From Nocardia sp. SYP-A9097 (GTDB taxonomy: Bacteria > Actinomycetota > Actinomycetes > Mycobacteriales > Mycobacteriaceae): a stretch of 64,000 nt of DNA. Below are positions 34,012-48,357 of the stretch, in pieces. Below the pieces are notes generated by a model that saw nothing but the letters and a program-made list of their open reading frames with translations, was not told the origin of the DNA and did not search any database. Position numbers and translations under genes: made by a program. The DNA lies in contig NZ_WJIC01000003.1 of assembly GCF_009649815.1 (NCBI RefSeq), positions 310,001 to 374,000 on the forward strand. Reading direction: 5' to 3'. How positions within the stretch are numbered: the stretch's first letter is position 1; every line of letters begins with the position of its first letter.

Positions 34012-34030
34012 CGATGCGTAAACGTTGCAT
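34012..34030. promoter_or_regulatory. CGATGCAT-type 11-bp direct repeat before the TIGR01777 gene
   Basis: CGATGCGT at 34012 and CGTTGCAT at 34023 are exactly 11 bp apart. A TTAGAG that could serve as a -10 element lies at 34051, just before the ATG at 34064. The same arrangement occurs at three other promoters of this cluster (36178, 40512, 41895), suggesting a shared operator for the MerR/B12-type regulator at 40640-41461. Confidence 0.55.
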
Positions 34031-34063: not shown

Positions 34064-35428
34064 ATGGGCATCGACTGTTCGAGTGTGGTGCCGGAGTCCC
34101 GCGAGGATGTGTTCGCGTGGTTCTCCCGCCCCGGGGCGCTGGCCAGATTGGCGCCGCCCTGGCAGCCGGTGACGATCGCGGCCGAGGCCGATTCGCTGGA
34201 CACTGGCAGCGCGGTGTTGCGCCTGCCAGGCGGGCTGCGGTGGGTGGCCCGGCACGATCCGGCGGCCTACGATCCGCCGTGGTGTTTCGCCGACGAGACG
34301 GCGATCGACGGCCTCGCGTCCGTGCCGGTGGGGGCGCTGGTGCGCTGGCGGCACACCCATAGGTTCGAGGAAATCGACCAGGGGCGGACCCGGGTCGTGG
34401 ATTCCGTGGCCGCGCCGGTCCCGGCCCGGCTGTTGCGGCCGATGTTCGGCTATCGCTACCGGCAGCTCGCCGACGACCTGGCCGCGCATCACCGCGCTGC
34501 CGCGCACGGTTTCCGGCCGTCGGTCATCGCGATGACCGGCTCGTCCGGCCTGGTGGGATCGGCCCTGTCCGCGTTCCTGACCACCGGAGGACACACGGTG
34601 ATCCGGCTGGTTCGCCACCCGGCCCGGCATGCGGGGGAACGAGAATGGAACCTCGCCGCGCCCGCGCCCGAGCTGCTCGACGGCGTCGACGCCGTAGTGC
34701 ATCTGGCAGGTGCCTCGATCGCGGGCAGGTTCACCGCCGCCCACCGCCGCGCCCTGGTCGACAGCCGGGTCGGCCCCACCCGCGCGCTGGCCGAGCGGGC
34801 CGCGGCGGCGGGGGTGCCGACCTTCGTCACAGCCTCGGCCGTCGGCTACTACGGACCCGATCGCGGTGACGAACGACTCGACGAGAGTTCTACACGCGGA
34901 ACGGGTTTCCTCGCCGATCTGGTGGCGGACTGGGAGCACGCGGCCGAACCCGCGGCGCGGTCGGGATTGCGGGTGGTCCGGGTCCGCACCGGCATCGTGC
35001 AGTCCCCGCGCGGGGGCACGCTGCGGCTGCTGAGGCCACTGTTCGCCGCGGGGCTCGGTGGGCGCATCGGTGACGGCCGGCAGTGGCTGTCGTGGATCGG
35101 CATCGACGACCTGGTCGAAATCTACCACCGGGCACTGTGGGACGGGGAGCTGTCCGGCGCGGTGAACGCTGTAGCCCCGAACCCGGTGCGCAACCTCGAC
35201 TACACAGCGACGCTGGCACGGGTGTCGCGGCGGCCCGCCGTGATTCCGGTGCCGCGGTGGGGTCCCGCGCTGTTGCTGGGCGCGCAGGGCGCCGAGGAGC
35301 TGGCCGCCGCGAGTCAGCGGGTGCTACCGGACCGGCTGACCGCCGCGGGGTACAGCTTCCGTCATCCCGACCTGGACGCGTGCCTTCGTCATCTGCTCGG
35401 GCGGGAGAGCATCGATCCGGGGCGCTGA
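34064..35428 (+). CDS. TIGR01777 family epimerase-like protein with N-terminal SRPBCC domain
   Basis: 454 residues. Residues 1-150 form a START/SRPBCC-like domain (VPESREDVFAWFSRPGALAR, RWRHTHRFEEIDQGRTRVVD). Residues ~155-450 form an extended SDR domain with IAMTGSSGLVGSALSAFL, VDAVVHLAGASI, FVTASAVGYYGPD and the TIGR01777 landmarks RTGIVQSPRGGTL, GDGRQWLSWIGIDDLV and NAVAPNPVRN. This fusion is common near photolyase/Cfa clusters. Biochemical role unknown; a lipid-related reductase is plausible. The operator-like repeat 34 bases upstream ties it to the cluster. Confidence 0.88.
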   Translation: MGIDCSSVVPESREDVFAWFSRPGALARLAPPWQPVTIAAEADSLDTGSAVLRLPGGLRWVARHDPAAYDPPWCFADETAIDGLASVPVGALVRWRHTHRFEEIDQGRTRVVDSVAAPVPARLLRPMFGYRYRQLADDLAAHHRAAAHGFRPSVIAMTGSSGLVGSALSAFLTTGGHTVIRLVRHPARHAGEREWNLAAPAPELLDGVDAVVHLAGASIAGRFTAAHRRALVDSRVGPTRALAERAAAAGVPTFVTASAVGYYGPDRGDERLDESSTRGTGFLADLVADWEHAAEPAARSGLRVVRVRTGIVQSPRGGTLRLLRPLFAAGLGGRIGDGRQWLSWIGIDDLVEIYHRALWDGELSGAVNAVAPNPVRNLDYTATLARVSRRPAVIPVPRWGPALLLGAQGAEELAAASQRVLPDRLTAAGYSFRHPDLDACLRHLLGRESIDPGR

Positions 35429-35468: not shown

Positions 35469-36098
35469 TCATCCGGCGGGGCGCAGTGTGCACAGCGGTT
35501 CGATCGTGTCGATTCCCCCGGTGGTGGGCGATGTCAGGTACACACACGGATCCATGCCGGCGGCGGACGTGATGGCGGAGCGGATTTGATCCCATTGCGC
35601 GGCAGTCAGTTCCGCGGTGCGAGACAGGACGAATCCGGACAGGCGAGCGGGGTCGGTGACCAGCGACCAGGAGTAGTCGGTGTCGAGCGCGGTGACGATG
35701 TAGTTCGGCGGGCCGTCGAGCTGGTCCTGGGTCGGCACGCCGGGAAAGCTCACGTGCAGCTGTGCGTCGGTACTCGGGTCGGTGACCTTGGCGGTACCGA
35801 GGATGCGGTTCGGTGCTCCGGACCAGGTCGTGCAGATGTTGTCCACGGTCACGTTCCCGGCCGGGTCGAGGGTGTAGCGGGCCTGGGTATCGTGGGCGCA
35901 GGCCAGCGAGAAGGGCTCTGGAACGGCGGCCAGTTGATTCCAGGTCCCCAGATATCGCTCGAGATCCAGCGACGCGACCGGCGCCGGTGGTGTACCCGCA
36001 AGTGGGTCGGCCTGCGCCACCGAACCGGAGACGGTGACGGCGAGGGCTGCGGCGACGGCGACCTTTTCGATCGCGCGTTGTGTTTGCCGAACGTTCAT
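35469..36098 (-). CDS. exported lipocalin (Blc-like)
   Basis: 209 residues with an N-terminal Sec signal (KVAVAAALAVTVSGSVAQADP). The lipocalin signature is YLGTWNQLAAVPEPF (GxW motif), followed by beta strands with ARYTLDPAGNVTVDNICTTW, YIVTALDTDYSWSLVTDP and GFVLSRTAELTAAQWDQI. Bacterial lipocalins bind fatty acids or lysophospholipids at the envelope, which fits the lipid-modifying genes nearby. ATG 36098 follows AGGAG. Its promoter region carries the CGATGCA repeat at 36178. Confidence 0.85.
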   Translation of the reverse strand: MNVRQTQRAIEKVAVAAALAVTVSGSVAQADPLAGTPPAPVASLDLERYLGTWNQLAAVPEPFSLACAHDTQARYTLDPAGNVTVDNICTTWSGAPNRILGTAKVTDPSTDAQLHVSFPGVPTQDQLDGPPNYIVTALDTDYSWSLVTDPARLSGFVLSRTAELTAAQWDQIRSAITSAAGMDPCVYLTSPTTGGIDTIEPLCTLRPAG

Positions 36099-36177
36099 GT
36101 CTACTCCTGTCTCGAACGACTTGTCGGCGGGGTTGGTGGTTCTGGGCTGCGTTCCTTCTCTTACCTTAACGTAAAAA

Positions 36178-36196
36178 CGATGCAATAGCGATGCAC
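36178..36196. promoter_or_regulatory. CGATGCA 11-bp direct repeat upstream of the lipocalin gene
   Basis: CGATGCAA at 36178 and CGATGCAC at 36189 form a direct repeat with an 11-bp period, 80 bases before the lipocalin start and just past the end of the SDR gene. It shows that the lipocalin has its own promoter with the same candidate operator as the rest of the cluster. Confidence 0.6.
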
Positions 36197-36218: not shown

Positions 36219-37172
36219 CTATCCGATGTCGGCTGCCGCCCGGCAGTAGTCCCACAGCTCGCCCACCTGGTCCCCGGTGTAGGTGGTGGTGGGCAGGCGA
36301 TGCTGCGGCCGGATGCGGCGGTCGTGCCAGAACTGACCGTTCGGTAGTTGCATTCCGGTGGCGGCGAGCCAGACCGCAGTATCGGCGCCGGCGCCCGGAT
36401 CCCGCAGGATCGGGGCGGTGACGCGGCGGAACGCCGGCAGGGCGGCACGGAGTCCGGGGGTATCCACCCAACCGGGGTGCATCGCGTGGACGCCGATCTG
36501 CCAGTGCTCCGCGGCGAGGGGCGCGAATGCCACCTGGATCCGTTTCGTGCGGGCGTACGCTGTTGCACCGCGGTAGGTTCCGTCCCGGTATTCGGGATCG
36601 GACCACGGGAGCGGCTGTGTGTACATCCCGGCCGACGCGACGAACACCACACGGGGATCGGGTGCGCGCCGCAGCGCGGGCAGCAGCAGGTCGGTCAAGG
36701 CCAGCGGGCCCAGGACGTGGGTGGCCAGGGTGAGTTCGTGTCCGGTGTGGGTCTCGGTGCGGCGATCGGGCAGCACGCCGGCGTTGTGGACGACGACATC
36801 GACCACCTCGGGCGCGGTGCGTGCGCAGGCGGCCAGGGTGGCTGGATCGGTGAGATCACAGTGCCGGACGGCGATATCGGCGCCGGGCACGTCGGCCAGG
36901 ATCCGGTCCCGGGTTCCAGCGCCTGCGTCCGTATTACGCACCGCCAGAATCACACCCGCCCCGAGAGCAGTCAGCTGTGCGGCGATCGCGAACCCGATTC
37001 CGGAGGCCGCGCCGGTCACCAGCGCGGTGCGCCCGCGCATCGCGCCGGCGGCTGGATCGCCGGGCGGCCAGCGGCGGCTCCGCAGGCGGAACCCGATCGT
37101 GCTGTAACCGGCGATGATCGAGCGGTCCAGCAACTGGTCCGCCCAGTCGGGCTGCGGCGGTGGGGGACTCAT
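36219..37172 (-). CDS. SDR family oxidoreductase in the photolyase/Cfa cluster
   Basis: 317 residues. After a 45-residue N-terminal extension (LLDRSIIAGYSTIGFRLRSR) comes an SDR domain: TALVTGAASGIGFAIAAQL, HNAGVLPDRR, FVASAGMYTQ and AYARTKRIQVAF (YxxxK), then HAMHPGWVDTPGL. Relatives occur beside Cfa-like genes in light- or singlet-oxygen-responsive clusters. ATG 37172 overlaps the stop of the cfa-like gene (ATGA), making it the last of a four-gene operon. Confidence 0.88.
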   Translation of the reverse strand: MSPPPPQPDWADQLLDRSIIAGYSTIGFRLRSRRWPPGDPAAGAMRGRTALVTGAASGIGFAIAAQLTALGAGVILAVRNTDAGAGTRDRILADVPGADIAVRHCDLTDPATLAACARTAPEVVDVVVHNAGVLPDRRTETHTGHELTLATHVLGPLALTDLLLPALRRAPDPRVVFVASAGMYTQPLPWSDPEYRDGTYRGATAYARTKRIQVAFAPLAAEHWQIGVHAMHPGWVDTPGLRAALPAFRRVTAPILRDPGAGADTAVWLAATGMQLPNGQFWHDRRIRPQHRLPTTTYTGDQVGELWDYCRAAADIG

Positions 37173-38452
37173 TGCGCGGCCTCGGCCGGGAGGTGCCCGT
37201 TCCCGCGGGTGAGCAGGAACTGTCCCACGTCCAGGTACCCGCTGCGGAATCCCGCCTCGGAGTGAGCGAGGTACAGCTGCCACATTCGGCGGAAGGTCTC
37301 GTCGAAACCCAGTGCCGTGACGGCCGTTTCGGCGTCCAGGAATTGTCGTTGCCACAGCCGCAACGTGTGCGCGTAATGCGGACCTATCGAGAAGTTCTCG
37401 CGCACAACGAGTCCGGCGGTCGCGGCGGTATCGGTGAGCAGGCGGGCCGACGGCAGGAATCCGCCGGGGAAGATGTACTCCTGGATCCAGGTGTGGGTGT
37501 GGCGGGTCGCGAGCATGCGGTCGTGCGGCATGGTGATGGCTTGGATCACCGCCCGCCCGCCGGGCAGCAGCGCCCGCTCGACGGTACGGAAGTAACCGGG
37601 CAGGAAGTCGTAGCCGACGGCCTCGACCATCTCGACCGACACGACCGCGTCGTAGTGTCCGTCCACCGCACGGTAGTCGAGCAGGTCGATCTCGACGCGG
37701 TCGGTGAGCCCGGCCGCCGCGACCCGATCCCGGGCGTGCCGGCACTGCTCGGCGGACAGGGTGACCGACCGCACCCGGGTGCCGCGTGCCGCGGCCCGCA
37801 CCGCGAGTTCGCCCCAGCCGGTACCGATTTCCAGTACCCGGGTGCCAGGACCGACGTGCGCGGTATCGAGTATCCGATCGATCTTGGCGCCCTGCGCCGG
37901 TGCGAGCTCCGCCCACGACGGCGCCGGATCGAGGCTGCCGAACAGCGCGCTCGAGTACGTCATCGTGTCGTCGAGGAACAGTCCGAAGAACTCGTTGGAC
38001 AGGTCGTAGTGGCGGGCGATGTTGCCGCGGGCCTGCTCGCGTGTGTTGCGGTCCGAGCTCGGGTGCGCGGCGACGACGCACCGCCGCAGCGCGCGCAGTG
38101 GCGCCGGTACCAGGCGGTCGATACCGGCGGCGAAGACGGCCAGGACCGTCGCCGGGTCGGCCGCCGACCAGTCGCCGGCCATGTACGCCTCGCCGAATCC
38201 GATCAGCCCCCGTGTGCCCAGCCGAGTCGCGAAACGATCGGGCCGGTGCACGGTCATGACCGGTCCGTCCGCGACGGACGGCAGCACGAGGCCGGTGCCG
38301 TACTCGACCTGCAGCGGCAGGCGGCGGACCGCGCGCCGGAACAGCCGGTCGGCGGTCGCGGCGGCGATCGCGGCGCGCGGGCCGCGCGGCAGCCGGTCGA
38401 GTTCGTAGCGGGGACCTGCGACGGGCGCACCAGATTCGCAGCGGACGGTCAT
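37169..38452 (-). CDS. cyclopropane-fatty-acyl-phospholipid synthase family methyltransferase
   Basis: 427 residues. The N-terminal domain contains GLIGFGEAYMAGDWSAADP, ARGNIARHYDLSNEFFGLFL and DTMTYSSALFG. The SAM-binding site is VLEIGTGWGELAVRAA, and the later signature is VEMVEAVGYDFLPGYF with TWIQEYIFPGGFLPS. It would methylate or cyclopropanate double bonds of phospholipid acyl chains using SAM. Members of this branch in stress clusters are linked to cyclopropane, methyl-branched or furan fatty acids; which product applies here is unknown. Four-base overlaps with both neighbours. Confidence 0.9.
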   Translation of the reverse strand: MTVRCESGAPVAGPRYELDRLPRGPRAAIAAATADRLFRRAVRRLPLQVEYGTGLVLPSVADGPVMTVHRPDRFATRLGTRGLIGFGEAYMAGDWSAADPATVLAVFAAGIDRLVPAPLRALRRCVVAAHPSSDRNTREQARGNIARHYDLSNEFFGLFLDDTMTYSSALFGSLDPAPSWAELAPAQGAKIDRILDTAHVGPGTRVLEIGTGWGELAVRAAARGTRVRSVTLSAEQCRHARDRVAAAGLTDRVEIDLLDYRAVDGHYDAVVSVEMVEAVGYDFLPGYFRTVERALLPGGRAVIQAITMPHDRMLATRHTHTWIQEYIFPGGFLPSARLLTDTAATAGLVVRENFSIGPHYAHTLRLWQRQFLDAETAVTALGFDETFRRMWQLYLAHSEAGFRSGYLDVGQFLLTRGNGHLPAEAAQ

Positions 38453-39165
38453 CGTTCGGTCTCCTGACCTCTGGGGTGGGGCACCACGGGCAGGCCGTGC
38501 GCCCACAACCGGATGCCCTGCCAGCGGATCAGTGCCGAAACCCGCAGTGGCGCAATGGGCATGGTGAGGGCGGCCCGCAACACCGATCGGGTATCGGCCG
38601 GGCGGCAGCGGCCGGTGACGGTCGCCGCGAAACGTGGGCCGCCGTCGTCGAGAAGGACCGACAGGAACAGGTTTTCGCCGGGTTCCGGCACCCGGATCCG
38701 GTAGGTACCGCGGACCTGGTTGAAGGGCGAGACGTAGAACTGCTTGGGGGTCTCGGCGCGGCCGCTCGCGTCGGGGCGCAGCAGATACCGGTGCCGCTCA
38801 CCGTAGGTGTTGTGTACCTCGGCGATCACGCAGACGGGCCGCCCGGCGGCGTCCCGGCACCAGTACACCGTGAGCGGGTTGAACACCCAGCCCAGCACCC
38901 GCGCATTGGCGAACATGCGGATTCGCCCGCCGTGCAGGTGGATTCCCTGCTCTGCCAGATAGCTGTCGATATTGTCGCGCAGCGATGCGTGGGGGTCACC
39001 GAGGTGGTCGGCGGGATCGAACCGCGCCAGCGGTGCGAGCCAGCGCGGCAACCGGGGAAGTTCGTCCAGGTCGACCAGCCAGCTGTAGCCGCGATACCGG
39101 AAGTTGTGCGGCCGCGGCACCCGCCGCGCGTGGGCCGTGCGGGTGTACACCAGTTGCGCCTTCAT
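38449..39165 (-). CDS. DUF1365 domain-containing protein
   Basis: 238 residues. It shows the family pattern VYTRTAHARRVPRPHNFRYR, YSWLVDLDELP, LGDPHASLRDNIDSYL, RMFANARVLGWVFNPLTVYW, ETPKQFYVSPFNQVRGTY and the C-terminal LIRWQGIRLWAHGLPV. Function is not established; the gene nearly always accompanies an FAD-dependent oxidase and a Cfa-like methyltransferase, suggesting a shared lipid pathway. ATG 39165 overlaps the FAD gene stop and its own TGA overlaps the cfa start. Confidence 0.9.
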   Translation of the reverse strand: MKAQLVYTRTAHARRVPRPHNFRYRGYSWLVDLDELPRLPRWLAPLARFDPADHLGDPHASLRDNIDSYLAEQGIHLHGGRIRMFANARVLGWVFNPLTVYWCRDAAGRPVCVIAEVHNTYGERHRYLLRPDASGRAETPKQFYVSPFNQVRGTYRIRVPEPGENLFLSVLLDDGGPRFAATVTGRCRPADTRSVLRAALTMPIAPLRVSALIRWQGIRLWAHGLPVVPHPRGQETER

Positions 39166-40478
39166 GCCGTCGCGACCGTGGTGACGGCTCGCCCGGCCCA
39201 GCGGGCACCGAGCTGTTCGGCGGCGCGCAGTCCGGACAACGCCCCGTCCTCGTGGAAGCCCCAGCCGTGATAGGCGCCCGCGAACGCCACGCGGGCGTCG
39301 CCGATTCGGTGCAGGTGCTGCTGTGCCACAACGGATTCCGGTGTGTAGCGGGGATGGCCGTAGATCATCCGGTCCAGCACCGCCGCTGCGGGTATCCCGG
39401 TGTCGTCGTTGAGGGTGAGCAGCAGCCGCCGGCCCGGAAGTCCTTGCAGCCGGGTGAGATCGTAGGTGACCAGCACCTGCGCGGGCGCGGCCGTGCAGGC
39501 CGGCAGCCGATAGTTCCACGACGCCCGGGCCCGAGCGGCCCGGGGGAGCGCCGATTCGTCGGTGTGCAGGATTGCCCGGTTCACCGAGTACGGCATCGCC
39601 GAGAGCACCTGTCGCTCGATCCCGGTCGGTGCGGTGAGCAGGGTCAGCGCCTGATCGGGATGAGTGGCGACGACCGCGGCGTCGAATTCGTGTGCGGTGC
39701 CGCGGTCGTCGCGCAGCACGACGCCGTCGAAGTGGCGTTCGAGGGCCCGCACCGGCGTCCCCGCGTGGACGGTGTCGACCGCGGCGGCGATCGCTGCGAC
39801 ATAGGTGTGCGAGCCGCCCACCACCGTCCGCCAGGTCGGTGAGCCGGATACGGTGAGCATGCCGTGGTGGTCGAGGAAGGTGAACAGGTAGCGCGCGGGG
39901 TACCGCAGCGCCGTTTCGGGATCGCAGGACCACACCGCCGCGACGAGCGGGGCCAGGAAATGGGTCGTGAAGTAGCCGGAAAAGCTTGCGCGCCGGACGA
40001 ATTCACCCAGGGTCTCGGTGTCGTCGGCCGCCTCGCGCAGGGCCGCGCGGGCCAGCCGGTGGAAGCGCGGAACCTCGGTCAGCAACCGCAGGTAACGGCC
40101 TCGCGTCGCATGCGCCGGGCGGGCGAACAGACCGCTCGGGCCTCGGGCGCCCGCGTACTCCAGACCGCAGCCGTCACAGCGGACCGACATGCTCATGTCC
40201 GAGGCCCGGGTCTCGATGCCCAGTTCAGCGAACAGCCGCAGCAGCGTCGGGTAGGTGCGGTCATTGTGCACGATGAATCCAGTGTCCACCGCGACCTCGG
40301 TGCCCGGCTCGAGGCGGAGGCGATGGGTGTGCGCATGCCCGCCCAGCCGCGGGTCGGCTTCGAACACCGTGACTCGCGCCCCCGCACGAGTGAGAACCCA
40401 GGCCGCGGTGAGGCCCGCGACTCCGCTACCGACGACGGCCACCCGGCTGCCGGTGCGCATATTCGAGACGTCGACCAC
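39162..40478 (-). CDS. FAD-dependent amine-oxidase-like oxidoreductase
   Basis: 438 residues. It has the Rossmann FAD motif VAVVGSGVAGLTAAWVLTRA, FEADPRLGGHAHTHRL, DTGFIVHNDRTYP, GCGLEYAG and a C-terminal FAD loop AFAGAYHGWGFHEDGALSGL. It belongs to the NAD(P)-binding/amine oxidase branch regularly linked to DUF1365 and Cfa. A GTG at 40478 has GAGGAG at good spacing; ATG 40460 is also possible. First gene of a four-gene operon (39162 to 36219) driven from the repeat-bearing region at 40512. Confidence 0.88.
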   Translation of the reverse strand: MVDVSNMRTGSRVAVVGSGVAGLTAAWVLTRAGARVTVFEADPRLGGHAHTHRLRLEPGTEVAVDTGFIVHNDRTYPTLLRLFAELGIETRASDMSMSVRCDGCGLEYAGARGPSGLFARPAHATRGRYLRLLTEVPRFHRLARAALREAADDTETLGEFVRRASFSGYFTTHFLAPLVAAVWSCDPETALRYPARYLFTFLDHHGMLTVSGSPTWRTVVGGSHTYVAAIAAAVDTVHAGTPVRALERHFDGVVLRDDRGTAHEFDAAVVATHPDQALTLLTAPTGIERQVLSAMPYSVNRAILHTDESALPRAARARASWNYRLPACTAAPAQVLVTYDLTRLQGLPGRRLLLTLNDDTGIPAAAVLDRMIYGHPRYTPESVVAQQHLHRIGDARVAFAGAYHGWGFHEDGALSGLRAAEQLGARWAGRAVTTVATA

Positions 40479-40511
40479 TGTTCTCCTCGACTCGGTAGTC
40501 ACGATGTGGTG

Positions 40512-40530
40512 ATGCATCGAGTATGCATCG
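40512..40530. promoter_or_regulatory. perfect ATGCATCG 11-bp direct repeat before the FAD/DUF1365/Cfa/SDR operon
   Basis: ATGCATCG occurs at 40512-40519 and 40523-40530, an exact direct repeat with an 11-bp period, 34 bases upstream of the operon's first start codon. This is the best-conserved copy of the cluster's candidate operator. CarH/LitR-type regulators are known to bind 11-bp direct repeats overlapping the -35 region. Confidence 0.65.
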
Positions 40531-40639: not shown

Positions 40640-41461
40640 TCAGTCGAGCGCGTCCAGTGCCTCGGTGAGCCTGGCGAGAGTCGCGACATCGGCGGGCAGC
40701 CGCACGGACGCCCAGCCGGGGCCTGCGACGTACGTCCGCGCGCCGGCCGCAACGCAGGCGGTCACGGCCGAGGCCAGTGCGGTGGATTCCTGCTGGGACC
40801 AGAGCACGACCGTCGGTGCCGGAATCCGGTCTATAGCGTCGACCAGTGCGTCGGTGGGCGTGTTCGCCCCCAGCATCGTGGCGGGCCGGCCGCGCTCGGC
40901 GAGCGCGGCGTGCAGCGTGGTCAGGGGCAGCGCATGGGTTTCGCCGCCGGTGCAGGCCAGCAGGATCGCCGACTCCCCGCGTGGGGCGGGGATCGCCTGC
41001 AGAGCGGAGGTCACGCACCAGGACAGCAGGTGCTCGACGTCGATGGAGCCGCCCTGCTGCTGAGCCTGGACTATGTCGGCGAATGCGGGCCGGCACAGGT
41101 CTTCCCAGAAACCGACCACACCGTGGCGGTTCAGATAACTGCTCAGCAATTCGCCGGCTCGGCCGCTGTCGAGGGCGAACGCGGCGTTCAGCAGCGCCGA
41201 GCGGTCGCCCGGTTCCGGAATCGGGACCCGGACCTCGGCTACCGCGCTGGACGGGCTTGCGCCGGCTCGCACCAGCGCGACCACCCGTTCCAGCACTGCG
41301 ATGTCGGCGGCGGTGTACAGCCGGTGCCGCCCGGGCTCGTGATGACCCGGGCCCAGCTGGTACCGCTGGTTCCAGCTGCGCAGGGTGGCCACCGGTACGC
41401 CGAGGCGGTCGGCTACGGCGCGTATGGGGTAGCCGACGGCGGCATCGGGTCCGGTGGACAT
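40640..41461 (-). CDS. MerR-type regulator with B12-binding-like (CarH/LitR-like) domain
   Basis: 273 residues. An N-terminal MerR helix-turn-helix (YPIRAVADRLGVPVATLRSW, GRHRLYTAADIAVLERV) precedes a helical cap (~90-155) and a Rossmann-like domain (AILLACTGGETHALPLTTLH, then VVLWSQQESTALASAV). This is the CarH/LitR layout that senses light through adenosylcobalamin. The key motifs are altered: DxHxxG reads E174-T-H176-A-L-P, and in Wx9EH the E143-H144 pair is kept but Trp is Ala133. It may therefore bind B12 weakly or respond differently. It neighbours photolyase and the repeated 11-bp operator. Confidence 0.82.
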   Translation of the reverse strand: MSTGPDAAVGYPIRAVADRLGVPVATLRSWNQRYQLGPGHHEPGRHRLYTAADIAVLERVVALVRAGASPSSAVAEVRVPIPEPGDRSALLNAAFALDSGRAGELLSSYLNRHGVVGFWEDLCRPAFADIVQAQQQGGSIDVEHLLSWCVTSALQAIPAPRGESAILLACTGGETHALPLTTLHAALAERGRPATMLGANTPTDALVDAIDRIPAPTVVLWSQQESTALASAVTACVAAGARTYVAGPGWASVRLPADVATLARLTEALDALD

Positions 41462-41465
41462 GGGC

Positions 41466-41876
41466 TCATTGTGCCGATCGTTCGGCCGGCAGGTCCGCGG
41501 CGGCCGGGGATGCCGGCCCGGACCCGACGGTGAACCAGGTGGCGGCACACAGTACCGCCCAGCTCGCCGCGACCACTACGGCCCGGTTGCGCTGCGGAGT
41601 GCCACGCAGCGCGACGGCGAACAAGAGGGTGTCGCACAGATCCGCTCCCACGCGAACCAGGATCGCGGCCCGGAGCGGGCCCGGGCGGGGTGCCGATATC
41701 AATGCGGCCCCGGACAGCAGGTCCCGCCAGCCCAGTGTGCGTGCGAGCATTCGCCGGCGGCCGTCCTCGGCCGACCATCCGCAGGGGCCGAGCAGGACGG
41801 CGGGCCGGGCGGCGACGGCCGCGCCGTAGGCCGCTGTCACCAATCCGGCGATTCGTGGTGCCGCTGTCGATCGCAT
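41466..41876 (-). CDS. small four-helix membrane protein (DUF4267-like)
   Basis: 136 residues with about four hydrophobic segments (RIAGLVTAAYGAAVAARPAV, DLLSGAALISAP, VRVGADLCDTLLFAVAL, AVVVAASWAVLCAATWFTV). The GWRDLLSGAALI and ADLCDTLLF features are like DUF4267-type proteins. It ends four bases before the MerR gene, so the two form an operon transcribed from the divergent region shared with photolyase. Function unknown. Confidence 0.7.
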   Translation of the reverse strand: MRSTAAPRIAGLVTAAYGAAVAARPAVLLGPCGWSAEDGRRRMLARTLGWRDLLSGAALISAPRPGPLRAAILVRVGADLCDTLLFAVALRGTPQRNRAVVVAASWAVLCAATWFTVGSGPASPAAADLPAERSAQ

Positions 41877-41894: not shown

Positions 41895-41913
41895 TTGAAT
41901 CGATTATGCATCG
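41895..41913. promoter_or_regulatory. ATGCATCG-type 11-bp direct repeat between photolyase and the MerR operon
   Basis: TTGAATCG at 41895 and ATGCATCG at 41906 keep the 11-bp period seen at the other three promoters. A TAGACT (41923-41928) lies in -10-like position for the photolyase gene. The divergent placement would let one operator control both photolyase and the regulator's own operon. Confidence 0.55.
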
Positions 41914-41990: not shown

Positions 41991-43343
41991 ATGATCCACA
42001 CCGCCGCTCTCGTGGGTTCGGGCCGCGTCACGGTCGCGGTATTCACCCGGGACCTGCGGGTGCACGACAATCCGGTGCTGTGCGCCGCCGCCCGCGCGAG
42101 CGCCCAGGTAGTGCCGCTGTTCGTGCTGGACGACGCGATCCTCGGCCGGGAACCGGTGTTGCCCAACCGAATCGGATTTCTCCTGGCGGCGCTGTCCGAG
42201 CTGGACGCCGAATTGCGCGCTCGCGGTGCGCGGCTGATCATGCGGCGCGGTGAGGTGGTGACCGAGGTGGAGCGGGTGGCCACCGAGGTGGGGGCCGGCG
42301 GCGTGCACATCGCCGCGGATGTCAGCCGGTACAGCGCTCAGCGAGCGAGGTGCCTGCGCGAACGGCTTGCCGCGCAAGGCATTCCGCTGTACGAACACGC
42401 CTCGGTGACCGCGGTGCCGCCGGGCGAACTCCGGCCGTCTTCCGGCGGAGCGCATTTCGCGGTGTTCACGCCGTACTTCCGGCGCTGGCTCGAGACCCCG
42501 ATCCGGACCGTGCACCCGGCCCCGGACTCGCTGTCGGTGCCCGACTTGGATCCCGGCCGGCTACCGACGGTAGCCGAGCTGTCCGTGGCGCCGGGTTCGC
42601 CCCAGCTGTCCGTCGGTGGTGAGACCAGCGCGCGAGAGTTGTTGCGTGCCTGGCTGTCCGGGCCCGTAGAGCAGTACGCCGAGCGCGCCGACGACCTGGC
42701 CGCCGATGCGACCTCCGGGTTGTCGCCCTATCTGCATTTCGGTTGCCTGTCGGCCGCCGAGCTCGTGCACCGCACCGACCTGTCCGAACCCGGCGGTTAT
42801 GCCTTCGCCCGGCAGCTGGCCTGGCGCGACTTCCAGCACCAAATGTTGGCGGCCCGAACCGAACTCGCGTGGACCGATTACCGGCCGCCACCGGCTCCGC
42901 CCCGCGACGACCCGCACGCGGCCGATGCCTGGCGGGCGGGCCGCACCGGATTCCCCGTGATCGACGCCGCGATGCGCCAACTGCTCGCCCAGGGGTGGAT
43001 GCCGGGCCGGGCCCGGCTGATCGCCGCGAGCTTCCTCACCAAGACCCTGCGCGTCGACTGGCGGATCGGTGCGGCCCACTTCCTGCGCTGGCTGGTCGAC
43101 GCCGACCTCGCCAACAACCAGCTGAACTGGCAGTGGGCGGCGGGTACCGGCACCGACACCCGCCCCAACCGCACCCTCAACCCGATCCTGCAGGCCGAAC
43201 GGCACGACCCCGACGGCAGTTACGTCCACCGCTGGCTCCCCGAACTGGCCGACCTCCCCGGCGGCGCCGTGCACCGGCCGTGGCGTGCACCGACCCTGGC
43301 CCGCGACTACCCGCCCCCGATCGTCGAGGTCAACGGCATGTGA
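41991..43343 (+). CDS. phrB: deoxyribodipyrimidine photolyase
   Basis: 450 residues. The N-terminal antenna (alpha/beta) domain has VAVFTRDLRVHDNPVLCAAA and VVPLFVLDD. The FAD domain shows TSGLSPYLHFGCLSAAELVH, ARQLAWRDFQHQMLAARTEL, GRTGFPVIDAAMRQLLAQGW and MPGRARLIAASFLTKTL with LRVDWRIGAAHFLRWLVDAD and NNQLNWQWAAGTGTD. It uses blue light to split cyclobutane pyrimidine dimers. AAGGAG lies six bases before ATG 41991; upstream extensions are unlike photolyase. Class I by motif pattern. Confidence 0.93.
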   Translation: MIHTAALVGSGRVTVAVFTRDLRVHDNPVLCAAARASAQVVPLFVLDDAILGREPVLPNRIGFLLAALSELDAELRARGARLIMRRGEVVTEVERVATEVGAGGVHIAADVSRYSAQRARCLRERLAAQGIPLYEHASVTAVPPGELRPSSGGAHFAVFTPYFRRWLETPIRTVHPAPDSLSVPDLDPGRLPTVAELSVAPGSPQLSVGGETSARELLRAWLSGPVEQYAERADDLAADATSGLSPYLHFGCLSAAELVHRTDLSEPGGYAFARQLAWRDFQHQMLAARTELAWTDYRPPPAPPRDDPHAADAWRAGRTGFPVIDAAMRQLLAQGWMPGRARLIAASFLTKTLRVDWRIGAAHFLRWLVDADLANNQLNWQWAAGTGTDTRPNRTLNPILQAERHDPDGSYVHRWLPELADLPGGAVHRPWRAPTLARDYPPPIVEVNGM

Positions 43344-45777: not shown

Positions 45778-46980
45778 TCAGATGTGTTCATATCGAGTGC
45801 CCGCCTCGGCCTCGTGTTTGCGGCGCATGTTTTGGGCTACCTCGGCCTCCCATGCTTCGTTGGCTTTGCTGGTGTCGACCTCGAATTCGAAGCGCCGCTG
45901 CGCTTTCGGGTCGATATCGGCGACGTCCACATAGAACTGTTCGTACCAGCGGCGCAGCTGGTATACCGGACCGTCTTCCTCGCACAGCAATGGATTCTCG
46001 ATCTTGGACTTGTGCTTCCAGATCTCGACGTCCTGGAGGAAGCCGACGCCGATCCCCTCGACCATGGCGGCCGCCAACTGGTTTGCCGCCTCATCCGGTA
46101 AGCCCTGGGGTTTCTCCAGCGTGATTCCGTATTGCAGCACGAACGAGTCCTGAGTGACCGGGTAGTGGCAGTTGATCAGCACACTCTTGGTCTCGAAGCC
46201 GCTGTAGGCATTGGTCAGCGGATTGATCATGTAGGACGGTCCGTAGTACGAGGCTTCCGACTTCAGCAGTGTGTCACCCGCGTACTTGGTGGCCATTCCG
46301 ATGTCGGGACGGCCCTTGGTCTCCAGGAACTGGGTGGCGATATGGCCTTCGAAGACGTTCTTGAAATATGTGGGGAAGGCGTAGTGGATATAGAAGAAAT
46401 GCGCCATATCGACGATGTTGTCGATGATCTCCCGGCAGTTGGAGCCCTCGATCAGGATCGAGTTCCAGGTCCAGGGGGTCCAGTCGGAACTGTGGGTTTC
46501 GGTGCTGTCGCCGGTGGCGTCGGTGTACGGCCCGTCGATGTAGGGGATTGTCACCGCGTCGGTGGGTTTACTGCCCTCGTGGTCATGCCAAGCGAACAGC
46601 TGCCCATTGCGTTCGAGCGTGGGCCAGGTGCGCGTGCGGGCCAGCGGTGGTACGCGCCGCGCGTAGGGAATGTCCTTGCACTTTCCGTCGCCGCCCCAGC
46701 GCCAGTCGTGGAATGGACAGGCGACAGCGCCATCCTTGATCTCACCCATGGCCAGGTCGCCGCCGAGGTGCCGGCAGTAGGCGTCGAGTATCTTCAAATC
46801 ACCGGCGTTGTCGGCCCAGACGACCAGTTTGGTGCCGAAAGCCTTGACCGCGTGCGGTTTACCGTCGCGGAAGGCGCTGGCCAGGCCCAGGCAGTGCCAG
46901 CCGCGGGCATAGCGGGTGGGCATGGAGCCCACGTCGATTTCGCGGATCTTTCCGCGGGGCCCTTGCGGGGGCGTCGCCAT
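45778..46980 (-). CDS. kshA: 3-ketosteroid 9-alpha-hydroxylase, oxygenase component
   Basis: 400 residues. The Rieske domain has C69-x-H71 (AYCRHLGGDLAMGE) and C88-x2-H91 (ACPFHDWRWGGDGKC). The mononuclear iron site is in DNIVDMAHFFYIHYAFPTYF (H194, H199). PYARRVPPLARTRTWPTLER is typical of KshA. With its reductase KshB it 9-alpha-hydroxylates 3-ketosteroids, triggering ring-B opening. ATG 46980 has GGGAG upstream; longer starts run into the operator. A KstR-like site at 47001 and divergent hsaA support the steroid assignment. Confidence 0.93.
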   Translation of the reverse strand: MATPPQGPRGKIREIDVGSMPTRYARGWHCLGLASAFRDGKPHAVKAFGTKLVVWADNAGDLKILDAYCRHLGGDLAMGEIKDGAVACPFHDWRWGGDGKCKDIPYARRVPPLARTRTWPTLERNGQLFAWHDHEGSKPTDAVTIPYIDGPYTDATGDSTETHSSDWTPWTWNSILIEGSNCREIIDNIVDMAHFFYIHYAFPTYFKNVFEGHIATQFLETKGRPDIGMATKYAGDTLLKSEASYYGPSYMINPLTNAYSGFETKSVLINCHYPVTQDSFVLQYGITLEKPQGLPDEAANQLAAAMVEGIGVGFLQDVEIWKHKSKIENPLLCEEDGPVYQLRRWYEQFYVDVADIDPKAQRRFEFEVDTSKANEAWEAEVAQNMRRKHEAEAGTRYEHI

Positions 46981-47000
46981 CAGCATCTCCCAGATACAAC

Positions 47001-47014
47001 TAGAACAGGTTGCA
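47001..47014. promoter_or_regulatory. KstR-like operator before kshA
   Basis: TAGAACAGGTTGCA fits the mycobacterial KstR consensus TnnAACnnGTTnnA at every defined position. It lies 21 bases upstream of the kshA start. KstR represses cholesterol catabolic genes until a sterol-derived CoA ester is present. Confidence 0.75.
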
Positions 47015-47123
47015 GAACTGTGCAATTTTGGGCCATCCGTATTGGTCTCGACAATGGCCAAAAGTCCCTAGAGTTCAGTAACTTCCTCCGCTGATCTCAG
47101 GTCTCGTCATGCCTGATAGTGAT

Positions 47124-47137
47124 GAGAACGTGTTCTA
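47124..47137. promoter_or_regulatory. KstR-like operator before hsaA
   Basis: GAGAACGTGTTCTA contains the palindrome AGAACGTGTTCT and matches TnnAACnnGTTnnA except for the first base. It lies 57 bases before hsaA, so each divergent gene has its own KstR-type site. Confidence 0.7.
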
Positions 47138-47193
47138 GTTCCGTGGCGCTCGGGGTACCGGCCGCCACCTACCGTTCAGGAGCATCCGGCGAG

Positions 47194-48357
47194 ATGACCC
47201 AGCAGATAATCCATCGTGTCGAGGCAGTGCTTCCCATGTTGCGAGAACGCGCACAGGAAACCGAGGACCTGCGGCGCATACCAGACGAATCGATCAAAGA
47301 CTTACAGGAGACGGGCTTCTTCCGGCTTCTGCAACCCCGCCAGTGGGGCGGCCACGCCGCCGATCCGGTCGTCTTCTACGACACGGTCCGCAAGATCGCG
47401 AGCGCGTGCGGCTCCACCGGTTGGGTGGCGGGCATCCTCGGCATCCACAACTGGCACCTGGCGCTGTTCGATCAGCAAGCGCAGCACGATGTCTGGGGCG
47501 CGGACTCGGATACGCGCATCGCGTCCTCCTACTCGCCCATGGGCGCGGGCAGCGTGGTCGACGGGGGCTACCGGGTGACCGGTTCGTGGGGGTATTCCTC
47601 GGGTTCCTCGCACGCCGAGTGGGTGGTCGTCGGCGGTCCGGTCATCAAGGACGGCAAGCCGGTCGACTTCGGCTCATTCCTCATTCCTCGCAGCGAATAC
47701 CGAATCGACGACGTCTGGAACGTGGTCGGTCTGCGCGGTACCGGCTCCAACACCATCGTGGTGGAGAACGTGTTCGTACCCAAGCACCGTTTCCTCAGCT
47801 TCCGTGCCATGGGCGAGCTGAAATCGCCTGGCCTGGAGCAGAATACCGATCCGGTGTACAAGATGCCGTGGGGCACCATCCATCCCACCACCATCTCCAC
47901 CCCCATCGTCGGAATGGCCTACGGCGCTTACGACGCGCATGTGGAGCACCAGGGCAAGCGCGTACGCGCCGCCTACGCCGGTGAGAACGCCAAGGACGAT
48001 CCGTTCGGCAAGGTGCGTATCGCCGAGGCCGCCAGTGACATCGACGCCGCCTGGCGTCAGCTCTCGGGCAATGTCGCCGACGAGTACGCCTACCTGCTGC
48101 GCGGCGAGGATGTTCCGTTCGACGTGCGCGCTCGCGCCCGGCGCGACCAGGTCCGCGCCACCGGCCGCGTCATCTCCTCGGTTGACAAGCTGTTCGAGGC
48201 CTCGGGCGCGACCGCGCTCGCCAATGGCACTCCGCTGCAGCGCTTCTGGCGTGACGCACACGCCGGCCGAGTACACGCGGCGAACGATGCCGAGCGCGCC
48301 TACCTCATGTATGGCACCCACGCGTTCGGTCTCCCGATCACCGACACGATGGTCTGA
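47194..48357 (+). CDS. hsaA: HsaA-type 3-HSA hydroxylase, oxygenase subunit
   Basis: 387 residues of the group D flavin monooxygenase (acyl-CoA dehydrogenase fold) family. It shows LQETGFFRLLQPRQWGGHAA, IASACGSTGWVAGILGIHNW, RIASSYSPMGAGSVVDGGYR, GSWGYSSGSSHAEWVVVGG and GLRGTGSNTIVVENVFVP. HsaA with reductase HsaB hydroxylates 3-HSA in the cholesterol ring-degradation path downstream of KshA. ATG 47194 has CAGGAG upstream. hsaB, hsaC and hsaD do not follow here, so the usual hsa operon is broken up or lies elsewhere. Confidence 0.92.
   Translation: MTQQIIHRVEAVLPMLRERAQETEDLRRIPDESIKDLQETGFFRLLQPRQWGGHAADPVVFYDTVRKIASACGSTGWVAGILGIHNWHLALFDQQAQHDVWGADSDTRIASSYSPMGAGSVVDGGYRVTGSWGYSSGSSHAEWVVVGGPVIKDGKPVDFGSFLIPRSEYRIDDVWNVVGLRGTGSNTIVVENVFVPKHRFLSFRAMGELKSPGLEQNTDPVYKMPWGTIHPTTISTPIVGMAYGAYDAHVEHQGKRVRAAYAGENAKDDPFGKVRIAEAASDIDAAWRQLSGNVADEYAYLLRGEDVPFDVRARARRDQVRATGRVISSVDKLFEASGATALANGTPLQRFWRDAHAGRVHAANDAERAYLMYGTHAFGLPITDTMV

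Follow-up and report, generated by a model that had tools for sequence, protein, structure and literature searches.

The litR locus

The window analysed here (64,000 nucleotides of contig NZ_WJIC01000003.1 from Nocardia sp. SYP-A9097) carries litR, which encodes a regulator of the CarH/LitR family, together with a divergent photolyase gene and a series of genes annotated mainly by family searches:

34064..35428, plus strand: YfcH-type (TIGR01777) oxidoreductase (family searches)
35469..36185, minus strand: lipocalin, true start probably near 36098 (family searches)
36219..37100, minus strand: short-chain dehydrogenase, SDR (family searches)
37169..38506, minus strand: cyclopropane-fatty-acid-synthase-like methyltransferase, CFA synthase (family searches)
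38449..39228, minus strand: DUF1365 protein (family search)
39162..40517, minus strand: FAD-dependent amine-oxidase-like protein, true start probably internal (family search)
40640..41461, minus strand: litR, Gln-type CarH/LitR regulator, 273 aa (ORF list, Pfam, PDB matches, AlphaFold2, Foldseek, VIA)
41466..41876, minus strand: 136-aa protein without a Pfam or NCBIfam match, directly upstream of litR (family searches)
41991..43343, plus strand: phr, DNA photolyase, divergent from the litR operon (family searches)

A search with LitR returned 80 named loci, all from Nocardia and with up to 84% identity; these are the best 80 of 117 matches and, with LitR itself, make up 81 rows. At least one of the seven cluster genes lies near litR in 78 of the 80 loci: phr in at least 56, the lipocalin gene in at least 64, yfcH in at least 49, CFA synthase in at least 20, DUF1365 and SDR in at least 16 each, and the amine oxidase in at least 14, all of these being lower bounds because the flanks measured 6 kb or less, and the SDR and CFA-synthase matches possibly including paralogues. 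Genes for DUF1365 proteins, amine oxidases and CFA synthases also occur in singlet-oxygen and furan-fatty-acid operons elsewhere.

The 136-aa gene is probably in the same operon as litR; its product is hydrophobic-looking and was matched by BLAST in 11 of the 80 Nocardia loci. Beyond the cluster, positions 45778-48357 hold frames that we take, from their translations, to be Rieske-oxygenase-like (KshA-like) and acyl-CoA-dehydrogenase-like (HsaA-like), and these may mark the start of a steroid catabolism region.

Domain architecture and predicted fold

The litR frame (41461-40640, minus strand) encodes 273 residues beginning MSTGPDAAVG, arranged as a MerR DNA-binding domain (residues ~11-77), a helical bundle (~88-155) and a Rossmann domain (~166-273). 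The N-terminal winged helix is recognized directly, with a MerR_1 match of 49.8 bits (Pfam cut-off 21.6) and a recognition-helix segment reading TLRSWNQRY. The helical bundle and the Rossmann cobalamin domain are predicted from the AlphaFold2 model and from structural matches, the Pfam B12-binding match being sub-threshold (23.6 bits, cut-off 32.1) and the score against the NCBIfam CarH equivalog NF052513 reaching 75.9 bits against a cut-off of 400. The top PDB sequence matches are nevertheless two Thermus thermophilus LitR/CarH chains (E 2.4e-15 and 2.7e-15).

The AlphaFold2 model (mean pLDDT 92.4) places the cap residues on a long helix spanning residues 99-135. Foldseek ranked CarH at the top, with 25-28% identity across the twelve best rows, and VIA-align found the cobalamin domains of photocobilin, CarH and CtMerR nearest: domain-only chains gave Z 17.6-20.4 over 185-199 residues (rmsd 2.5-3.2), chain 3whp Z 15.4 (rmsd 3.9), and full-length CarH chains Z 15.9-18.8, with rmsd rising to 6.3-12.8 because the domains are placed differently. 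Further matches were MetH (1bmt; Z 16.6), the AppA SCHIC domain (16.2) and AerR (13.0). LitR is thus predicted to possess a full B12-binding domain, as opposed to the absent or incomplete one of Class II-V LitR proteins. The frame, strand and three-domain architecture given in a preliminary description of this DNA, drawn from the sequence, are all borne out, as is the retention of Glu143-His144 and His176, and structure prediction, which that description had suggested as a check, yielded a CarH-like model.

Both adenosyltransferase families, CobA/BtuR-type and PduO-type, are encoded in the host genome; the cell can therefore adenosylate cobalamin, a capacity distinct from any use of the product by LitR.

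The lower-axial motif

Residue frequencies were counted over 181 aligned actinobacterial rows, comprising the named Nocardia loci (80) and other actinobacterial loci. A class-level search matched 136 of 296 genomes and an order-level search 129 of 298, each contributing at most its best 30 loci, to which 40 chosen places were added; the sample is non-random, and its many Gln rows (below) reflect heavy sampling of Nocardia.

40925..40942, minus strand: lower-axial motif ExHxxP of litR (E174, H176, P179; alignment, range by codon counting)

The preliminary description had read ExHxxP as an altered form of the motif that carries the lower-axial histidine. The sequence is as described, but it is ordinary: the acidic residue is Glu in 174 of 181 rows (Asp in 7), the third residue after the histidine is Pro in 162 (Gly in one), and the histidine itself is kept in 179. 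Among Trp-bearing rows the third residue is likewise mostly Pro (31 of 43; Ala 11, Ser 1), T. thermophilus CarH also aligns a Glu at the acidic position, and the classic B12 motif has been printed as D/ExHx2G/P (PMC9304148). On these alignments ExHxxP is the usual actinobacterial LitR form, Trp-bearing rows included, and the claim of an altered lower-axial motif is not supported.

The remainder of the motif fits less well. The full CarH version is given as D/ExHx2G/P-x41-SxT/V-x22-27-GG (PMC9304148); in LitR, ExHx2P fits, and is followed by x42, SxQ, x21 and AG, the last aligning with GG in 64 of the 81 Nocardia rows. GxxH (G173 to H176) and GxxxP (G198 to P202) are present, in addition to E143-H144.

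A coupled replacement in the cap helix

41030..41083, minus strand: cap segment, codons 127-144 (F127, V131, Q134, E143, H144; alignments, codon counting from 41461)

The Leu/Gly/Trp stripe of CarH corresponds in LitR to Phe127/Val131/Gln134, with the Glu-His pair kept, so that the motifs of CarH read Qx8EH in place of Wx9EH and VxxQ in place of GxxW. The preliminary description had the tryptophan missing, correctly, and had assigned its place to Ala133; the alignment rules this assignment out, the aligned residue being Gln134 (Gln in 81 of 81 Nocardia rows), and position 133 is Arg in 72 of the 81. The discrepancy arose from counting nine residues in a protein with a one-residue deletion: the spacing is Qx9EH in 109 of 113 Gln rows, Qx8EH, as in LitR, in three and x15 in one. 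Compared with actinobacterial LitR rows, the lower-axial residues of LitR are ordinary and its cap is not.

Across the 181 rows the Trp column holds Gln in 113, Trp in 43 and other states in 25 (His, Phe, Cys, Val, Ala, Ser or a gap). The glutamine is accompanied by two further changes. At position -7 from this column Trp rows have Leu (41) or Met (2), whereas 110 of the 113 Gln rows have Phe, the exceptions being two with Leu and one with Tyr. The GxxW glycine is missing from all 113 Gln rows, which have Val (103), Ile (6), Glu (2), Asp (1) or Thr (1); it is kept by 41 of the 43 Trp rows, the other two having Ala, and by 22 of the 25 remaining rows. A partial stripe occurs in three rows of the main Gln clade, L123 and L127 (Leu with Asp or Glu) and L147 (Phe with Glu). 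Judging from their spacing, residues 127, 131 and 134 should share one face of helix 99-135.

The Gln rows, which include paralogues and other genera and extend down to 38% identity with LitR, are invariant (113 of 113) at Glu143, His144, His176, Pro202, Gly247, Gly249 and Trp250. Glu143 and His144 are both kept in only 39 of 43 Trp rows and in 23 of 25 others; the ligand residues are thus more constant in Gln rows than in Trp rows, which rules out a decayed gene. The AlphaFold input alignment (93 of 122 non-redundant rows) would give a biased list of invariants, since it omits all six rows lacking E143, H144 or H176; the 181-row counts cover every one.

Those six (L130, L133, L149, L157, L158, L159; four are Trp rows and the other two are gapped at that column) have lost the E or H of EH (reading VH, EY or EW), L149 and L157 having lost the lower-axial histidine as well, so several separate B12-loss lineages may exist. 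Eight other homologues (L098, L131, L150-L154, L174) have His at the Trp position (GxxH) and keep both EH and the lower-axial histidine, a possible natural bis-His arrangement.

The three cap changes nearly cancel in residue volume, which suggests that the pocket of Gln-type LitR has been repacked and not just vacated. The adenosyl group of CarH is held by a stacking contact with Trp131 and a hydrogen bond from Glu141 (PMC10442372); in CtMerR a corrin amide is bound by the carbonyl of the Gly, and the Trp contributes hydrophobic contacts (PMC11796333). Stacking of the Trp131 type cannot occur in a protein whose sequence lacks the Trp.

LitR could still be an ordinary AdoCbl photoreceptor, in which Phe, Val and Gln pack on the adenosyl group, light breaks the Co-C bond, and only the rule that Wx9EH defines CarH is wrong. 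The equivalent of the adenosyl-bonding Glu141 and the histidine are invariant in Gln rows, the host has adenosyltransferases, the operator type described below is common to some Trp-type relatives, and the 23 of 25 rows that combine another substitute with EH and the lower-axial histidine make the Trp look replaceable. This is a plausible reading that we do not favour: the Gly is lost whenever Gln is present and mostly kept with other substitutes, which indicates a pocket reshaped and not merely trimmed, and AdoCbl binding and assembly are reported to depend critically on the Trp motif (PMC8156234, PMC10442372).

A second reading starts from the coupled, conserved change of the upper face and has the domain bind a different cobalamin form or a tetrapyrrole, hydroxocobalamin and haem being examples, and respond to redox state or to the products of singlet oxygen. 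AerR and AppA-SCHIC, both among the fold matches, use such other cobalamin forms or tetrapyrroles as ligands, and Gln could form a hydrogen bond with water or a hydroxo group as upper ligand. With AdoCbl photoreceptors as the nearest folds, we consider this reading unlikely.

Distribution and origin of the glutamine

The regulator was found at E 1e-40 or better in 102 of 118 genomes of the genus, its own included. Its own genome contains one full-length homologue, the seven other matches being weak (E 2e-4 or worse) and mostly confined to the HTH. Many Nocardia genomes have two Gln-type litR genes; in five loci (L041, L054, L076, L081, L087) two such genes are adjacent on opposite strands, and the second copy in these pairs has Tyr where the first has Cys, ahead of the D/EVEH segment.

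These copies bear on a third reading, that LitR is a B12-independent repressor resembling CarA, with EH and His176 kept for folding and induction by another input. LitR shares the pattern of Myxococcus xanthus CarA, a B12-independent protein that has lost the Trp and kept EH and the B12 motif (PMC9304148), and by analogy CarA warns that such a domain can turn B12-independent. CarA is, however, described as confined to Cystobacterineae and always accompanied by CarH (PMC9304148), and no CarH paralogue was seen beside Gln-type litR in the LitR genome or among 13 of the second or third Nocardia copies, all 13 of which are Gln-type, so that these gave no CarA/CarH pair. The metal-ligand histidine is moreover invariant across the wide span of the Gln rows. 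We regard this reading as rather doubtful.

A tree was built from 56 rows (Gln 16, Trp 30, others 10) thinned at 62% identity, with the cap columns left out and nine odd or long-branch loci excluded. It places the Gln rows in one clade of 14 (support 97/97) and a pair, L097/L177 (100/100), which sits among Trp and Phe rows and likewise carries Phe at -7, with Val or Thr at -3. Of 200 bootstrap trees, 0% showed Gln arising once; the AU test does not reject such an origin (p 0.066), so two origins are likely but short of proof. A first quick tree (92 rows) had needed three changes for Gln, two of them forced by starred branches. The Gln replacement thus probably arose twice, as far as these alignments indicate.

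A candidate operator at the cluster promoters

A candidate operator, CGATGCA-N4-CGATGCA (two direct repeats 11 bases apart), recurs at the promoters of the cluster; pattern searches located these copies:

34012..34029, plus strand: weak operator copy with 2 mismatches; its end lies 35 bases ahead of the listed start of yfcH
36178..36195, plus strand: exact operator copy, upstream of the lipocalin gene
40513..40530, minus strand: exact operator copy, upstream of the amine oxidase, DUF1365, CFA-synthase and SDR genes
41896..41913, minus strand: operator copy with 1 mismatch, CGATGCA-N4-CGATTCA, in the intergenic region separating phr from the litR operon

The only two exact copies in the 9.05-Mb genome are those of the litR cluster (reversed control, 0). 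With one mismatch or none, the genome has five sites, of which the cluster accounts for three; the other two (L183, L185), considered as operators of a wider regulon, lie inside open frames, judged from their mid-locus position, and the regulon therefore appears local. At two mismatches the genome has 92 sites versus 13 for the reversed control, so that sites of this grade, the yfcH copy included, are weak on their own.

The 80 Nocardia loci (995,024 bases) contain 106 sites with at most one mismatch versus 0 in one two-base-block shuffled copy, and 171 versus 6 when two mismatches are allowed; 70 of the 80 loci have a one-mismatch site. The consensus is AACGATGCATAATCGATGCAT, and no third repeat is visible in 92 non-redundant sites. 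The element thus has the architecture of CarH operators (11-bp direct repeats), on comparative sequence evidence. The placement of the one-mismatch copy between the litR operon and phr supports control of the photolyase, as the preliminary description had proposed.

A TA[GC] triplet, resembling part of a -10 element, precedes 48 of 95 sites by 4-18 bases (mostly -12 to -9); three control stretches gave 10, 11 and 4 of 95. Read in reverse, as [GC]TA, the triplet is likewise enriched (52 of 95), so that the promoter at these sites could run either way; an element touching the promoter in either direction would suit a repressor.

In other groups the operator was counted at up to two mismatches, as raw numbers taken without a chance control. 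Six of seven loci from a second genus of the family have it, as do four of the seven Streptomyces-like Trp-type loci, 5 of 18 other Trp-type, 4 of 9 Cys/Val/Ala-type and one of the three partial-stripe loci L123/L127/L147; the eight His-type loci, the ten small-genome Trp-type loci and the two of the second Gln lineage gave no match. The presence of the operator in Trp-type relatives means that it may predate the cap change on this branch. L097 and L177 share another 11-bp-spaced repeat, TGAATA, possibly the operator of their lineage.

The genes nearby also differ outside the main set. None of the cluster's light-defence genes was matched in three 14-kb loci of the second genus, where a NUDIX gene adjoins litR in all three, scoring above the NCBIfam cut-off for IPP isomerase in both of the two tested (L201, 5475-6956; L203, 6680-8128); a two-mismatch operator lies upstream in L201, and none was found in L203. 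This arrangement is suggestive of control of isoprenoid supply by the Gln-type litR of that genus. Around a second Nocardia copy (L204), no light-defence gene of the cluster was matched in a 15-kb region.

A proposed cobalamin-binding repressor with a rebuilt upper face

LitR falls within a Gln-type branch of actinobacterial CarH/LitR proteins. We favour, with a probability of roughly 0.55, the reading that Gln-type LitR binds cobalamin, with the upper B12 face rebuilt, and represses a cluster of photolyase and membrane-lipid genes. LitR would bind cobalamin base-off through His176 and, as a dimer or higher oligomer, would sit on the two 11-bp direct repeats, occupying the promoters of its own operon, the photolyase and the membrane-protection genes and repressing all of them in the dark, until light, or photo-oxidative chemistry on the cobalamin, releases it. 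Since the adenosyl-facing helix appears rebuilt from Leu/Gly/Trp to Phe/Val/Gln while Glu-His stayed fixed, the upper ligand would be held or chosen otherwise than in CarH. In short, the invariant His176, Glu143 and His144 argue that cobalamin is still bound, and the rebuilt side argues that its upper face is handled in another way.

In favour of this repressor model are the invariant ligand residues, the fold, the adenosyltransferases, the operator counts, the TA[GC] triplet and the gene linkage; against it are the precedent of CarA, the loss of Trp stacking, the deviant B12 motif, the sub-threshold Pfam and NCBIfam scores, the ambiguous promoter direction and the missing operator at L097/L177. 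The earlier suggestion that an altered cap motif possibly entails a different use of cobalamin is strengthened by the conserved, coupled Phe-Val-Gln replacement; LitR probably still controls DNA-repair and membrane-protection genes, and may sense light, or something else, differently.

A bolder form of this model, which we offer only tentatively, would make Gln-type LitR a separate cobalamin sensor, in which the coupled rebuild, perhaps acquired twice, allows another upper ligand (hydroxo, methyl or a Gln-held water) and light or photo-oxidative products are sensed by non-CarH chemistry, with CarH-style operators and defence genes of the same kind.

Wx9EH has been called absolutely conserved in CarH and, with the B12 motif, defining (review, PMC8156234), and GxxW is part of the SignatureFinder signature for mining green-light receptors, alongside EH, GxxH and GxxxP (PMC11796333); the Gln-type branch would be missed by these criteria. 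The family offers natural experiments on the role of the Trp, with Gln, His, Phe, Cys, Val, Ala and Ser at one site, and could lead to B12-based optogenetic switches that prefer other ligands, and a candidate operator and target set are now defined for light and photo-oxidative defence in Nocardia.

Comparison with known systems

Searches of one open-access library yielded no description, binding data or light data for the Gln-type branch, and its nearest characterized relative is CarH (class I LitR). By the published rule (Wx9EH, GxxW) LitR is, on its sequence, not a CarH; it is most likely CarH-like in architecture, operator type and kind of targets. The two share the MerR, helical-bundle and Rossmann arrangement, EH, the lower-axial histidine, GxxH and GxxxP, and differ in that LitR has Gln/Val for the Trp/Gly of GxxW, Phe for Leu at -7, and no equivalent of CarH His132 (Gln135 by alignment). 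The CarH operator has three repeats, against the two seen here. Its repeats are also direct and 11 bp apart, with another sequence (PMC8156234), and T. thermophilus CarH is reported to tetramerize only with AdoCbl, aided by Trp131 stacking (PMC10442372). CarA, which resembles LitR in its lost Trp and retained EH and B12-binding motif, also lacks four flanking residues (PMC9304148), whereas most Gln-type rows keep the x9 spacing.

The Streptomyces-like Trp-type LitR proteins (L164-L169, L182) share with the Gln-type ExHxLP (in most), W[SA]Q, GPGW and, in four of seven, a similar operator; unlike the Gln-type, they keep the Trp (Wx10EH) and the Gly. The Class II-V LitR proteins of the Takano group have the MerR domain in common with the Gln-type and are described as lacking all or part of the B12 domain, which in Gln-type LitR is predicted to be whole; in Pseudomonas putida, phrB and ufaM are among the light-induced genes under class II LitR control (PMC9758184). 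Photocobilins (PDB 8j2w, 8j2x, 8j2y) have the same cobalamin domain fold (Z 19.5-20.4) and bear in addition a biliverdin-binding domain (PMC11796333), whereas the 273-aa LitR ends with its cobalamin domain.
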